NCBI GenBank assembly: GCA_035489715.1
Contig: DATHAP010000191.1
Span: forward strand, 1 to 35,570
Direction: 5' to 3'
DNA: 35,570 bases
DNA from: Actinomycetes bacterium
GTDB lineage: Bacteria > Actinomycetota > Actinomycetes > JACCUZ01
Position numbers and translations under genes: made by a program. The notes under the pieces are model-generated. The model saw only the letters and a list, made by a program, of their open reading frames with translations, searched no databases and had not been told where the DNA came from. Shown one piece after another: positions 4,078 to 21,857 of the stretch; position 1 is the first letter of the stretch, and every line of letters begins with the position of its first letter.

Positions 4078-4086
4078 TGTGGACAA
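4078..4086 (-). promoter_or_regulatory. DnaA box (perfect TTGTCCACA on the minus strand)
   Basis: TGTGGACAA on the plus strand is the exact complement of the actinobacterial DnaA box. It lies just upstream of the candidate dnaA -35 element, a position suited to autoregulation or origin binding. Confidence 0.75.
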
Positions 4087-4399: not shown

Positions 4400-5914
4400 G
4401 TGACCGACGACATCGCCACCGAGGTGGCCGACCGCACGCTCGACCCGGCGCTGGACAGCGCGTGGACCCGAGCGCGGGCGGCGCTGGAGGAGTCGGTCAG
4501 CCCGCAGCACCGGGCCTTCATCGGGCTCAGCCGGCTGGACGGCGTGGTGGGCGACACGGCACTGCTGTCGGTGCCGCACCAGTTCGCCAAGGACGTCATC
4601 GAGCAGCGGCTGCGGGAGACGATCACCGGGGCGCTGGCCGACGAGATCGGCCGCGACGTGCGGATCGCCGTGGTGGTCGACCCGAGCCTGGACGCCGTCG
4701 ACCCGGAGCCCGGAGCCGGTTCGGTGGCCTCGCCCGGTCCCGACGGGTCCATCCCCCAGGTGGGGGACGGCCACCACACCGTCCTGACCCACGACCACGC
4801 CGACGAGCACACCCCAGGGCACGTCACCGAGCCGGCCGGCACGGGTCGCGAGCCCGGCGGGCGCCGGGAGTCCGAGCCCACGCGGCTCAACCCGCGCTAC
4901 CTCTTCGAGACGTTCGTCATCGGCTCGAGCAACCGGTTCGCCCACGCGGCCGCCGTCGCCGTCGCCGAGGCACCGGCCAAGGCGTACAACCCGCTGTTCA
5001 TCTACGGGGACTCCGGCCTCGGCAAGACCCACCTGCTGCACGCCATCGGCCACTACGGGATGAGCCTCTACCACGGCGTCCGGGTGCGCTACGTGAGCTC
5101 CGAGGAGTTCACCAACGACTTCATCAACTCGATCCGCGACGGCCGCGCCGAGGGCTTCCGCCGGCGCTACCGCGACGTCGACATCCTGCTCGTGGACGAC
5201 ATCCAGTTCCTCGAGAACAAGGAGCAGACGCAGGAGGAGTTCTTCCACACCTTCAACACGCTGCACAACGCCAACAAGCAGATCGTCATCTCCTCCGACC
5301 GGCCGCCCCAGCAGCTGGTCACCTTGGAGGACCGCCTGCGCAACCGCTTCCACTGGGGCCTGATCACCGACGTCCAGCCGCCCGAGCTGGAGACCCGCAT
5401 CGCGATCCTGCGCAAGAAAGCGGCCCAGGAGAAGCTCAACGCCCCGCCCGAGGTGCTGGAGTTCATCGCCAGCAAGATCTCCACCAACATCCGCGAGCTC
5501 GAGGGCGCCCTCATCCGGGTCACCGCGTTCGCGAGCCTCAACCGCCAGGGTGTCGACCTGGCGCTGGCCGAGATCGTGCTGAAGGACCTCATCCCGGACA
5601 ACACCCAGCCCGAGATCACCGCCGCGACGATCATGGCCCAGACCGCGGCCTACTTCGGCCAGTCGATGGAGGAGCTCTGCGGGTCCTCGCGCTCGCGGGT
5701 CCTGGTCAACGCCCGCCAGATCGCGATGTACCTCTGCCGCGAGCTGACCGACCTGTCGCTGCCCAAGATCGGGCAGCAGTTCGGCGGCCGCGACCACACG
5801 ACCGTCATGCACGCGGACAAGAAGATCCGCCAGCTGATGGCCGAGCGGCGCAGCGTCTACAACCAGGTCACCGAGCTGACCAACCGGATCAAGTCCCAGG
5901 CGCGGGCCAGTTGA
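4400..5914 (+). CDS. dnaA: Chromosomal replication initiator DnaA
   Basis: DnaA binds DnaA boxes at oriC, forms an ATP-dependent filament and opens the duplex. In the 504-residue product, domain I covers about 15-95. A Gly/Pro/His-rich linker (domain II) reaches about 160. The AAA+ core starts at [20 protein letters not shown], with Walker [10 protein letters not shown] (203-211) and Walker [11 protein letters not shown] (261-270). Domain IV has the DNA-recognition signature [10 protein letters not shown] (462-471). The GTG start at 4400 is chosen because VTDDIATE gives a normal N-terminus and GGAGAGG lies upstream; the frame extends further but without family similarity. Long antisense frames here are compositional. 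Confidence 0.98.
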
Positions 5915-6275
5915 GCCCCGCGCGACCCCCGACGCGCGCGGGTGACCTTTCACACCATGGGGACAAGCCTGTGGAAAGCCGGGGTTCCAGGCGGGGACAC
6001 GGTGTGGACACCGGTGGACGACCGCGGCCGTGCACAGGCCGCCCCGCTGTGTCCGCAGGGGTTCCCACCGGCTGTCCCCACCCCGGTCTAGCCTCTGACC
6101 TGCAAGGACGCCGGCCGTCCCCAGGATCCACCACCCCTGAGGAGACCATGACACCTAGCCATGGAGTTGGATCGGCACAACACATGAGGGGGCGCGTGGA
6201 CTGGGGACGACCGGTCCGGACGTGCGTCCCCGTCCCTGCCGGGGCGCGCGGGGAGACCGAAGGAGGCGGTGTCGG
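5915..6275. other. dnaA-dnaN intergenic region, candidate oriC
   Basis: This 361-bp gap is the usual oriC position in Streptomyces and Mycobacterium. DnaA-box-like 9-mers on the plus strand are TGGGGACAA (5958-5966), TGTGGAAAG (5970-5978), TGTGGACAC (6003-6011) and GGTGGACGA (6013-6021). All are variants, none perfect. A -10-like TAGCCT occurs at 6089-6094 with no good -35. The 3' part contains a short frame coupled to dnaN. No strongly AT-rich stretch is visible. Confidence 0.6.
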
Positions 6276-8402: not shown

Positions 8403-9572
8403 TTGCACCTCAGCCACCTGTCCCTGCACGACTTCCGGTCCTACACCGAGGTCGAGCTCCCGCTCGGCCCCGGCGTGACCGCGTTCGTCGGCCCCAACGG
8501 CCAGGGCAAGACCAACCTCGTCGAGGCGGTCGGCTACCTGGCGACCCTTGGCTCGCACCGGGTCGCTCAGGACGCCCCGCTGGTGCGGCTCGGTGCCGAG
8601 CGCGCGGTGGTGCGCGGCCAGGTGGTGCGCGGCGACCGCGCGCTGCTGGTCGAGCTGGAGATCGTTCCCGGCCGGGCCAACCGCGCGCGGGTCAACCGCT
8701 CGCCGGTCACGCGGCCCCGGGAGGTGCTCGGCATCCTGCGCAGCGTGCTGTTCGCCCCCGAGGACCTGGCGCTGGTCAAGGGCGACCCCGCAGAGCGCCG
8801 GCGCTTCCTCGACGAGCTGCTGGTGCTGCAGGCACCCCGCTACGCGGCCGTGCGCGCCGACTACGACCGGGTGCTCCGCCAGCGCAACGCCCTCCTGAAG
8901 TCCGCCTCGGCAGCCCGGCGCGGCCGCCCGGGCGACGTCGACCTCTCGACGCTCGAGGTGTGGGACGCCCACCTCGCGACCGCCGGCGCCGAGCTGCTGG
9001 CCGGCCGCCTCGCGCTGGTCGAGGGGCTGCAGCCCCTCGTCGGCGCGGCCTACGCGGCGGTCGCCGACGACACCACCGGCCGCCCGGGCGTCACGACCGC
9101 GGGACCGGCGACGATCGCCTACCGCAGCAGCGTCGAGGGTGACGGCCCATCGACCGGTGACCGCGGCGCCCTCGCGGAGTGGTTGCTGGCCGCGCTCACG
9201 GACGTACGTCGTCAGGAGCTCGACCGCGGCGTCTCCCTGGTCGGTCCGCACCGCGACGAGCTGGTCCTGACGCTGGGGCCGCTGCCGGCCAAGGGCTACG
9301 CCAGCCATGGCGAGTCCTGGTCGTTCGCGCTGGCGCTGCGGCTGGCGGCGTACGACCTGCTGCGGGGCGAGGCCGGGGACGGGGGCGAGCCGGTGCTGGT
9401 GCTCGACGACGTCTTCGCCGAGCTCGACGACCACCGCCGGGAGCGGCTGGCCGCGCTGGTGGCCGGTGCCGAGCAGGTCCTGGTGACCGCCGCCGTGCCG
9501 GCCGACGTGCCGGCGGCCCTGGCCGGCGACCGCGTCGACGTGCTCGGCGCCGAGGTCCGGCGGGTGGCGTGA
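8403..9572 (+). CDS. recF: DNA replication and repair protein RecF
   Basis: RecF is an SMC-like ATPase that with RecO and RecR loads RecA at single-strand gaps. The 389-residue product has Walker [10 protein letters not shown] (30-38), an arginine-rich middle region ([13 protein letters not shown]), the ABC-type signature region around [15 protein letters not shown] and Walker [17 protein letters not shown]. The start is TTG at 8403: the family N-terminus (M-x-L-x-x-L-x-L-x-D-F-R-S-Y) begins exactly there and no better ATG/GTG is available. I see no strong ribosome-binding site, so translation may be weak. It overlaps the next gene by four bases. Confidence 0.96.
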
Positions 9573-12605: not shown

Positions 12606-16453
<3,848 letters not shown>

Positions 16454-20181: not shown

Positions 20182-21327
20182 GTGGGACCGGCTCGGGACG
20201 CGGTGGTCGTCGACGCGGTGCGCACCCCGGTGGGACGTCGCGGCGGCGGGCTGGCCGGCGTCCACCCGGTGGACCTGTCCGCGCACGTCCTGGAGGCACT
20301 CGCCGCCCGCACCGGTCTTGACCCGGCCGTCGTCGACGACGTCGTGTGGGGCTGCGTCTCCCAGACCGGTGAACAGGCCGTCAACGTCGCCCGCAACGCG
20401 GTCCTCGCAGCGGGATGGCCCGAGGACGTGGTCGGGATGACTGTCGACCGGCAGTGCGGGTCCTCGCAGCAGGCGGTGCACGTGGCGGCCGCGGGCGTGG
20501 TGGCCGGGCACTACGACGTCGCGGTCGCCGGCGGGGTCGAGTCGATGAGCCGGGTGCCCATGCTGTGCACCATCACCCAGGGGCCCGGCCTGCCCTTCGG
20601 CCCCCGGATGAGCGCCCGCTACGACGACGGGCTGGTCCCGCAGGGCGTGAGCGCCGAGATCGTGGCCGAGCGCTGGGCGCTGTCCCGCACCGACGTCGAT
20701 CAGATCGCCGTACGCAGCCACGCCCGGGCGGCCGAGGCCACCGACAGCGGCTCGGTCGAGCCGGAGCTGGCCCCGGTCGCCGGTGTGGCGGTCGACGAGG
20801 GCATCCGCCGCGGCACCGACCTCGAGACCCTGGCCGGGCTGCGCACGGTGTTCCGCGAGGACGGCGTGGTCACGGCCGGCAACTCGTCGCAGATCTCCGA
20901 CGGTGCCGCCGCGCTGCTGGTGACGACAAGCGAGGTGGCGGCCCGGCACGGCTGGCGTCCGCTGGCCCGGGTGCACGCCGTGTCCCGAGCAGGCGTCGAC
21001 CCGGTCACCATGCTGACGGCTCCGATCGCGGCGACGGCGCGGGTGCTGCAGCGGGCCGGGCTCGGCCTGGACGAGATCGACGTGTTCGAGGTGAACGAGG
21101 CGTTCGGGTCGGTCGTCGGGGCCTGGCTGGCGGAGACCGGGGCCGACCCGGCGCGGGTCAACCCGCGCGGAGGAGCCATCGCCCTGGGCCACCCGCTCGG
21201 CGGCTCCGGCGCCCGGCTGATGACGACGCTCCTGCACCACCTGGCTGCCACCGGCGGGCGGTGGGGGCTGCAGACGATGTGCGAGGGCGGCGGGATGGCC
21301 GACGCCACGGTCCTGGAGCGGCTCTAG
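20182..21327 (+). CDS. Acetyl-CoA acetyltransferase (thiolase)
   Basis: Thiolases exchange acyl groups between CoA thioesters, either ending beta-oxidation cycles or forming acetoacetyl-CoA. This 381-residue protein has the full active site: nucleophile C92 in DRQCGSSQQAV, H337 in GGAIALGHPLGGSGAR, and C367 in the terminal CEGGGMADATVLERL. The CEGGGMA ending is typical of degradative thiolases. GTG at 20182 follows AGGAGG inside the end of the rhomboid gene, so it may be co-expressed. It is not part of the conserved mycobacterial origin gene order and looks like a lineage-specific addition; its pathway cannot be told from context. Confidence 0.93.
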   Translation: MGPARDAVVVDAVRTPVGRRGGGLAGVHPVDLSAHVLEALAARTGLDPAVVDDVVWGCVSQTGEQAVNVARNAVLAAGWPEDVVGMTVDRQCGSSQQAVHVAAAGVVAGHYDVAVAGGVESMSRVPMLCTITQGPGLPFGPRMSARYDDGLVPQGVSAEIVAERWALSRTDVDQIAVRSHARAAEATDSGSVEPELAPVAGVAVDEGIRRGTDLETLAGLRTVFREDGVVTAGNSSQISDGAAALLVTTSEVAARHGWRPLARVHAVSRAGVDPVTMLTAPIAATARVLQRAGLGLDEIDVFEVNEAFGSVVGAWLAETGADPARVNPRGGAIALGHPLGGSGARLMTTLLHHLAATGGRWGLQTMCEGGGMADATVLERL

Positions 21328-21332
21328 GCGGG

Positions 21333-21364
21333 TTGTCCACATTGGGGACAACGGGTGTGGACGG
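21333..21364. promoter_or_regulatory. Cluster of three DnaA-box-like sites outside the origin
   Basis: TTGTCCACA (21333-21341, perfect, plus strand), TGGGGACAA (21343-21351, minus-strand TTGTCCCCA) and TGTGGACGG (21356-21364, minus-strand CCGTCCACA) are packed into 32 bp. The site is between the convergent thiolase and crgA genes, so it is not a promoter region. It could titrate DnaA or be an auxiliary initiation element. Confidence 0.6.
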
Positions 21365-21432
21365 ATTACACCGGTGTGTTTCGGCTGGTCAGCCCGTGTT
21401 CGCCGGGCGGACGGGTGCCGGTGGCCGCCCGT

Positions 21433-21684
21433 TCACTTCCAGCGGGTCGACAGGATGAAGCCGACGACGATGAGACCGAAGCCGATCGCCATGTTCCACA
21501 GGCCGATGCTGCCGATCGGGTAGTCGGTCTGGGTGACGTAGTACACGACCACCCAGAGCAGGCCGACCACGAAGCAGGTGACCATGAGGGGGGCGAGCCA
21601 GCGCGGGCTGCCGATGCGTACCGCGTCGGAGCGCTCGTTGGGCGGGGTGAACGCGAAGCGGCGGCGGCTGCGGGACTTGGGCAC
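21433..21684 (-). CDS. crgA: Cell division protein CrgA
   Basis: CrgA is a small actinobacterial membrane protein that interacts with FtsZ, FtsI and other divisome parts and influences septum formation. The 83-residue product begins MPKSRSRRRFAFTPPNERSD, has two membrane helices (about 30-50 and 61-79) and ends ILSTRWK, all typical. GTG at 21684 has GAGAGG upstream; the longer frame lacks family similarity. It reads leftward, convergent with the thiolase and divergent from the DUF881 gene, as in M. tuberculosis (Rv0011c/Rv0012). Confidence 0.96.
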   Translation of the reverse strand: MPKSRSRRRFAFTPPNERSDAVRIGSPRWLAPLMVTCFVVGLLWVVVYYVTQTDYPIGSIGLWNMAIGFGLIVVGFILSTRWK

Positions 21685-21857
21685 CGGACCTCTCTCTTCC
21701 TTGCTCGGCGGCGGCAGGGCGCCGACTGTGTCGACCAGCGCGGCCATCGCCCGGACGGCACCAACGGCGGCGCTCGTTCGTCGGTTAGCGTACGGGCGCG
21801 GGCCTCGAGGAGGTCAGCGTAGCGGCGGGACGGCCCCGCCCGGGGCGGGAGGTGAGC

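Follow-up and report, generated by a model that had tools for sequence, protein, structure and literature searches.

The locus considered here raises the question of why a cluster of DnaA boxes should reside within a short gap between two convergent genes, well removed from dnaA itself. The window, i.e. the entire 35,570-nucleotide stretch of actinomycete DNA that was analyzed, encodes dnaA at 4400-5914 (a gene identity assigned by the first-pass annotation together with sequence inspection), and the cluster is located ~15.4 kb from the dnaA end in a 105-bp gap separating a thiolase gene from crgA (Table 1). The first-pass annotation had described one perfect and two variant boxes at 21333-21364, had situated them in a convergent gap ~15 kb from dnaA, and had considered them denser than anything in either gap flanking dnaA. 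The box positions, the gene coordinates, and a strict consensus search, which places the sites of the flanking gaps at 4078 and 4257 and at 5958 and 6003, all bear this out. Its view of the element was sound for the DnaA half, but had overlooked an abutting McdR-type inverted repeat, which shares a single base with box 3 (the last base of that box). It is this composite of boxes and palindrome, located 51-100 bp from the crgA stop codon, that we believe to be the key feature of the locus.

Table 1. Features of the composite element and its neighboring genes (window coordinates)
Feature	Position	Strand	Remarks
Thiolase gene	20182..21327	+	Variable far-side neighbor, convergent with crgA
Composite-element model match	21320..21378	+	Single match in its own genome, E 4.2e-11
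DnaA box 1	21333..21341	+	TTGTCCACA, perfect
DnaA box 2	21343..21351	-	TTGTCCCCA, 1 mismatch; faces box 1 across 1 bp
DnaA box 3	21356..21364	-	CCGTCCACA, 2 mismatches
McdR/ResR-type operator (putative)	21364..21381	.	GATTACACCGGTGTGTTT; 2 mismatches to AATnACAnnnnTGTnATT
crgA	21433..21747	-	PF06781, E 2.6e-27; conserved neighbor, element 3' of crgA

A genome-wide scan for such 9-mers had been proposed as a check of the cluster, and it revealed the perfect box TTGTCCACA to be rare, with 12 copies in the whole 3.53 Mb draft genome. The degenerate pattern TTRTCCMCA occurs 16 times, compared with 5 occurrences of a reversed-pattern control. Within the window, 10 sites with ≤1 mismatch were found versus 2.9 expected, a number reached by none of 100 shuffles. 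For 16 sites scattered over the genome, a simple calculation gives ~0.001 expected pairs within 20 bp; the genome contains exactly two tight pairs, one in the crgA gap and the other on contig C126 (8667/8683). The C126 pair, which spans 8667-8691 (G000:C126; L396:1668-1692), is arranged as TGTGGACAA-N7-TTGTCCACA and is followed, ~130 bp downstream, by a gene for a TetR-like regulator.

The genomic context of the element is readily apparent from its relatives. crgA is present in 294 of the 297 genomes of the class, and we examined 110 crgA 3' flanks from ~45 families, all placed in the same orientation with the crgA stop codon as reference (two genomes were counted twice). In these flanks, the DnaA boxes lead straight into the inverted repeat AATnACAnnnnTGTnATT, which is found with ≤2 mismatches in 77 of the 110, versus none of 103 control stretches. 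The facing box pair formed by boxes 1 and 2 likewise recurs, as 32/110 flanks contain it with a 1-bp spacer and ≤3 mismatches, versus 1/104 controls taken 500-800 bp further out. The position of box 3 is maintained as TGTGGA/TGGGGA immediately ahead of the palindrome (alignment A1), while the ACA and TGT cores of the palindrome carry ~1.6-1.9 bits per position. The palindrome in the window retains this core (ACA-N4-TGT) with its fixed 4-bp spacer and matches the McdR motif at 10 of 12 fixed positions, its two mismatches being at outer positions and seen across its whole family. The composite element is a feature of the crgA 3' side in most families of the class, including the named mycobacterial loci (M. 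leprae among them), where boxes and palindrome are usually found 71 bp from the crgA stop codon.

The opposite side of the element is far less stable. Depending upon the family, the far-side gene is rhomboid-like, thiolase, zinc-ribbon-like, MATE-like, or Rv0010c-like, and a crude ORF call yields 38 convergent and 31 co-directional arrangements. Thus, of the thiolase-crgA gap whose conservation was in question, the crgA-side site is retained while the far-side gene changes. Since the far-side gene differs among families, it is unlikely that the element serves one neighboring promoter, in agreement with the earlier suggestion that promoter control is improbable where both genes end. A transcriptional role could also be envisioned, with crgA, the gene on the far side, or an antisense transcript as the joint target of DnaA and McdR. 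McdR does act as a repressor at other promoters (PMC9040748) and the mycobacterial site is positioned upstream of Rv0010c, but both window genes terminate at the element, a search of the element for a promoter-like match found none, and the expression of Rv0010c and Rv0011c is unaltered in dnaA mutants (PMC7738170). Together with the variable far-side gene and its variable direction, these observations render a transcriptional element quite improbable. A bidirectional terminator between convergent genes is a far weaker candidate still and we regard it as very improbable: the strand folds somewhat better than its shuffles (z -2.1) and there is one terminator-like match at 21354-21372, but it lacks a T run, the conservation resides in the sequence rather than in its pairing and matches two protein-site motifs, and the element is also kept between co-directional genes.

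The association with crgA was also recovered by a search that was blind to the position of crgA. A sequence-only model was built from 35 training elements, with mycobacteria absent from the training set and the window's own family (f1) as well as two others (f4 and f35) left out, and it was then run on 197 whole genomes. A match at E ≤ 0.01 was present in 166 of these. Among the 79 genomes for which both the top match and crgA were listed, 74 had the top match ≤450 bp from crgA, as did 48 of 53 held-out genomes; the remaining five top matches were 1.6-10.4 kb from crgA. In the small genomes of family f25 (G031, G061, G133, and G169), the best match falls 9-10 kb away from crgA. Families f16, f18 (Streptomyces-size genomes), f36, and a few others either lack the composite element or retain it in degraded form. 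Three f18 loci (L020, L071, and L074) have a degenerate CGTCACACCGGCGTCAAC ~90-120 bp from crgA beside scattered DnaA boxes. The model additionally matches genomes in other classes of the phylum, of which nine loci were read, with gene names assigned by reading the sequences rather than by family search. In L406 and L408, a crgA-like gene adjoins the element, while L407 and L413 also encode a crgA-like gene, with a CsoR-like gene in between. In two further loci (L411:1345-1404 and L414:1285-1346), the match lies upstream of a dnaE-like gene. One could still cite the second tight pair in the genome as a sign that the cluster arose by chance, but the blind held-out result and the synteny in other classes refute this through conservation, and we assign it a negligible likelihood.

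The likely binder of the palindrome is McdR, the product of Rv1830, also called ResR. The motif AATnACAnnnnTGTnATT was derived from the crgA flanks of relatives before the published McdR motif was found. McdR is a MerR family protein that represses whiB2 and binds AATnACAnnnnTGTnATT, as demonstrated by EMSA with mutated sites; its published sites are the promoters of whiB2, MSMEG_0833, and MSMEG_5468, and crgA is not among the targets named in the main text of that study (PMC9040748). Exact copies of the palindrome occur in 86 of 197 genomes, versus none for a reversed control pattern, and their locations independently returned whiB2, napA, and sepX, all of which are published McdR targets. 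The palindrome is found upstream of whiB2 in 30/30 genomes from ~28 families, including Streptomyces-size genomes, and upstream of sepX/glpR in f4 genomes. As judged from these sequences, the McdR-whiB2 link looks class-wide and would extend beyond mycobacteria. In the whiB2 upstream regions (L338-L367), the palindrome is often an overlapping double copy, GTGTAATTCCACnnGTGTCATT. It also precedes DUF3263/napA in 51/97 loci (L209, L221-L290), including the only exact copy in the window's own genome (L209:1501-1518; G000:C87:1544-1561). Upstream of napA, it is often situated just ahead of a TACGATG-like -10. Family f13 loci L214-L218 contain exact palindromes beside a small conserved ORF (~60-90 aa) having no Pfam match. 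A McdR ortholog, adjoining a bifunctional-nuclease gene, is encoded by 27 of the 28 genomes tested, with a near-invariant DNA-binding region, and the one from the window's own genome (L373) exhibits 77% identity to mycobacterial McdR.

Several other proteins were considered as ligands of the palindrome and set aside. Autoregulation by DUF3263/NapA had been one candidate, but its upstream copies are now explained as a McdR target, and the co-occurrence of DUF3263 with the palindrome is uninformative because DUF3263 is near-universal. WhiA/WhiB were discarded on account of the asymmetric GACAC, MtrA because its site consists of direct repeats, and BldD based upon spacer length, the spacer of BldD sites being one base shorter. 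HigA2 was dropped due to its ortholog range: although it does bind the copy from M. tuberculosis in vitro (at 8 uM), we know of no class-wide HigA2 ortholog.

In M. tuberculosis, the McdR-type palindrome presumably occupies ~13625-13642 of a 155-bp gap, 71 bp from the crgA stop codon. To judge by these coordinates, the recurrent clinical M. tuberculosis changes in the region very probably hit the McdR-type operator. IDAP-seq, with confirmation by EMSA, places the Rv0010c-Rv0011c(crgA) intergenic region among five regions of high DnaA affinity in M. tuberculosis, and homologs of the same regions in M. smegmatis are bound by DnaA in ChIP-seq (PMC7738170). By analogy with this orthologous site, binding of DnaA to the window cluster, previously just postulated, now appears probable. 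An independent study (PMC11205783) describes a palindrome with the pattern ATCAC(N)nGTGAT in the 5' region of Rv0010c, where DnaA binds, and point changes within the mycobacterial palindrome resemble dnaA mutants with respect to both cell length and drug response (PMC7738170).

Our preferred reading, to which we assign a probability of roughly 60%, takes the window element as the local representative of an actinobacterial cis-element, with the mycobacterial crgA DnaA site as its ortholog, and has it act as a McdR-gated sink or control site for DnaA. A box cluster this close to oriC would bind DnaA and would be duplicated soon after initiation, and would consequently leave less DnaA available to oriC, either by holding the protein or by shifting it to another nucleotide state. 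Once on the adjoining palindrome, McdR would alter the DnaA occupancy of the boxes, in its simplest form by exclusion, and a regulator of whiB2 and division genes could thereby also tune initiation. From the motif match and the ortholog encoded in the same genome, we infer that McdR would bind the window copy; we likewise infer the DnaA sink function and the direction of its effect upon DnaA. Both the rise in ori-proximal copy number upon McdR overexpression in M. smegmatis and the dnaA-like effects of the mycobacterial palindrome changes fit a role for McdR in relieving DnaA sequestration. McdR control of DnaA occupancy might therefore explain this otherwise unexplained rise, although the ori/ter effect of McdR could also be indirect. 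The datA-like or titrating role raised by the first-pass annotation may likewise apply.

Two other DnaA-based functions deserve mention. The boxes might instead support a DARS-like reactivation, recycling DnaA-ADP to DnaA-ATP, with McdR either promoting or blocking the reaction. This possibility draws upon the same DNA evidence, and damage to the palindrome resembles dnaA mutants, which is said to fit reduced DnaA activity (PMC7738170). We nonetheless consider it unlikely, as known DARS sites act with IHF/Fis (PMC5742627 and related reviews), and nucleotide exchange found no support in this analysis. The suggestion of an auxiliary origin element can be abandoned almost entirely. DnaA boxes near oriC are what might be expected of an additional replication origin, but the 105-bp gap holds three boxes only, an AT-rich unwinding stretch is not evident by eye, and nothing found in this analysis supports an origin, all of which makes it extremely improbable.

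If the proposed sink or control function is correct, the element might provide a link between chromosome replication and cell division. More broadly, but at somewhat less than even odds, it could represent a phylum-wide DnaA control locus having a datA/DARS-like role, in which McdR/ResR gates DnaA and couples division to initiation. Were this the case, the recurrent clinical mutations of Rv0010c-Rv0011c would mainly damage the McdR/ResR operator, and the dnaA and Rv1830 findings would fall into a single pathway. This also suggests a reason for the association of dnaA, the crgA site, and Rv1830 alike with drug response in clinical M. tuberculosis. The binding of DnaA to the mycobacterial site and the motif recognized by McdR had been described separately, whereas our search of the open-access literature found no report joining the two and none describing conservation of the element beyond mycobacteria. 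A mycobacterial site that previously had neither a mechanism nor a counterpart in other species becomes part of a non-coding element that is deeply conserved in the vicinity of the actinobacterial origin, with McdR as its likely second protein.

When compared to known systems, the element exhibits both obvious parallels and clear distinctions. DnaA-box clusters outside of oriC exist in Streptomyces (D78, H24, and H69) and in Bacillus, and those of Bacillus as well as D78 act negatively on initiation; to our knowledge, none of these clusters has a McdR-type operator. datA, DARS1, and DARS2 of E. coli are likewise non-coding DnaA-box clusters outside of oriC, and the window element may resemble them in having a second protein bound to the DNA. 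Their partner, however, is IHF (and Fis), whereas here it would be a MerR-family division regulator. The window site resembles the McdR operator in motif and spacing, at 10 of 12 fixed positions, yet the published McdR sites are promoters (PMC9040748), while this one abuts DnaA boxes where both genes end. By position and sequence, the window copy is the ortholog of the Rv0010c-Rv0011c(crgA) site: it lies on the same side of crgA, with facing boxes beside the same palindrome, and differs in its far-side gene, a convergent thiolase rather than Rv0010c. The original study interpreted the palindrome as DnaA boxes, named no second protein, and observed counterparts in mycobacteria only (PMC7738170), whereas here the palindrome is read as a McdR-type operator and the element is kept well beyond the mycobacteria.
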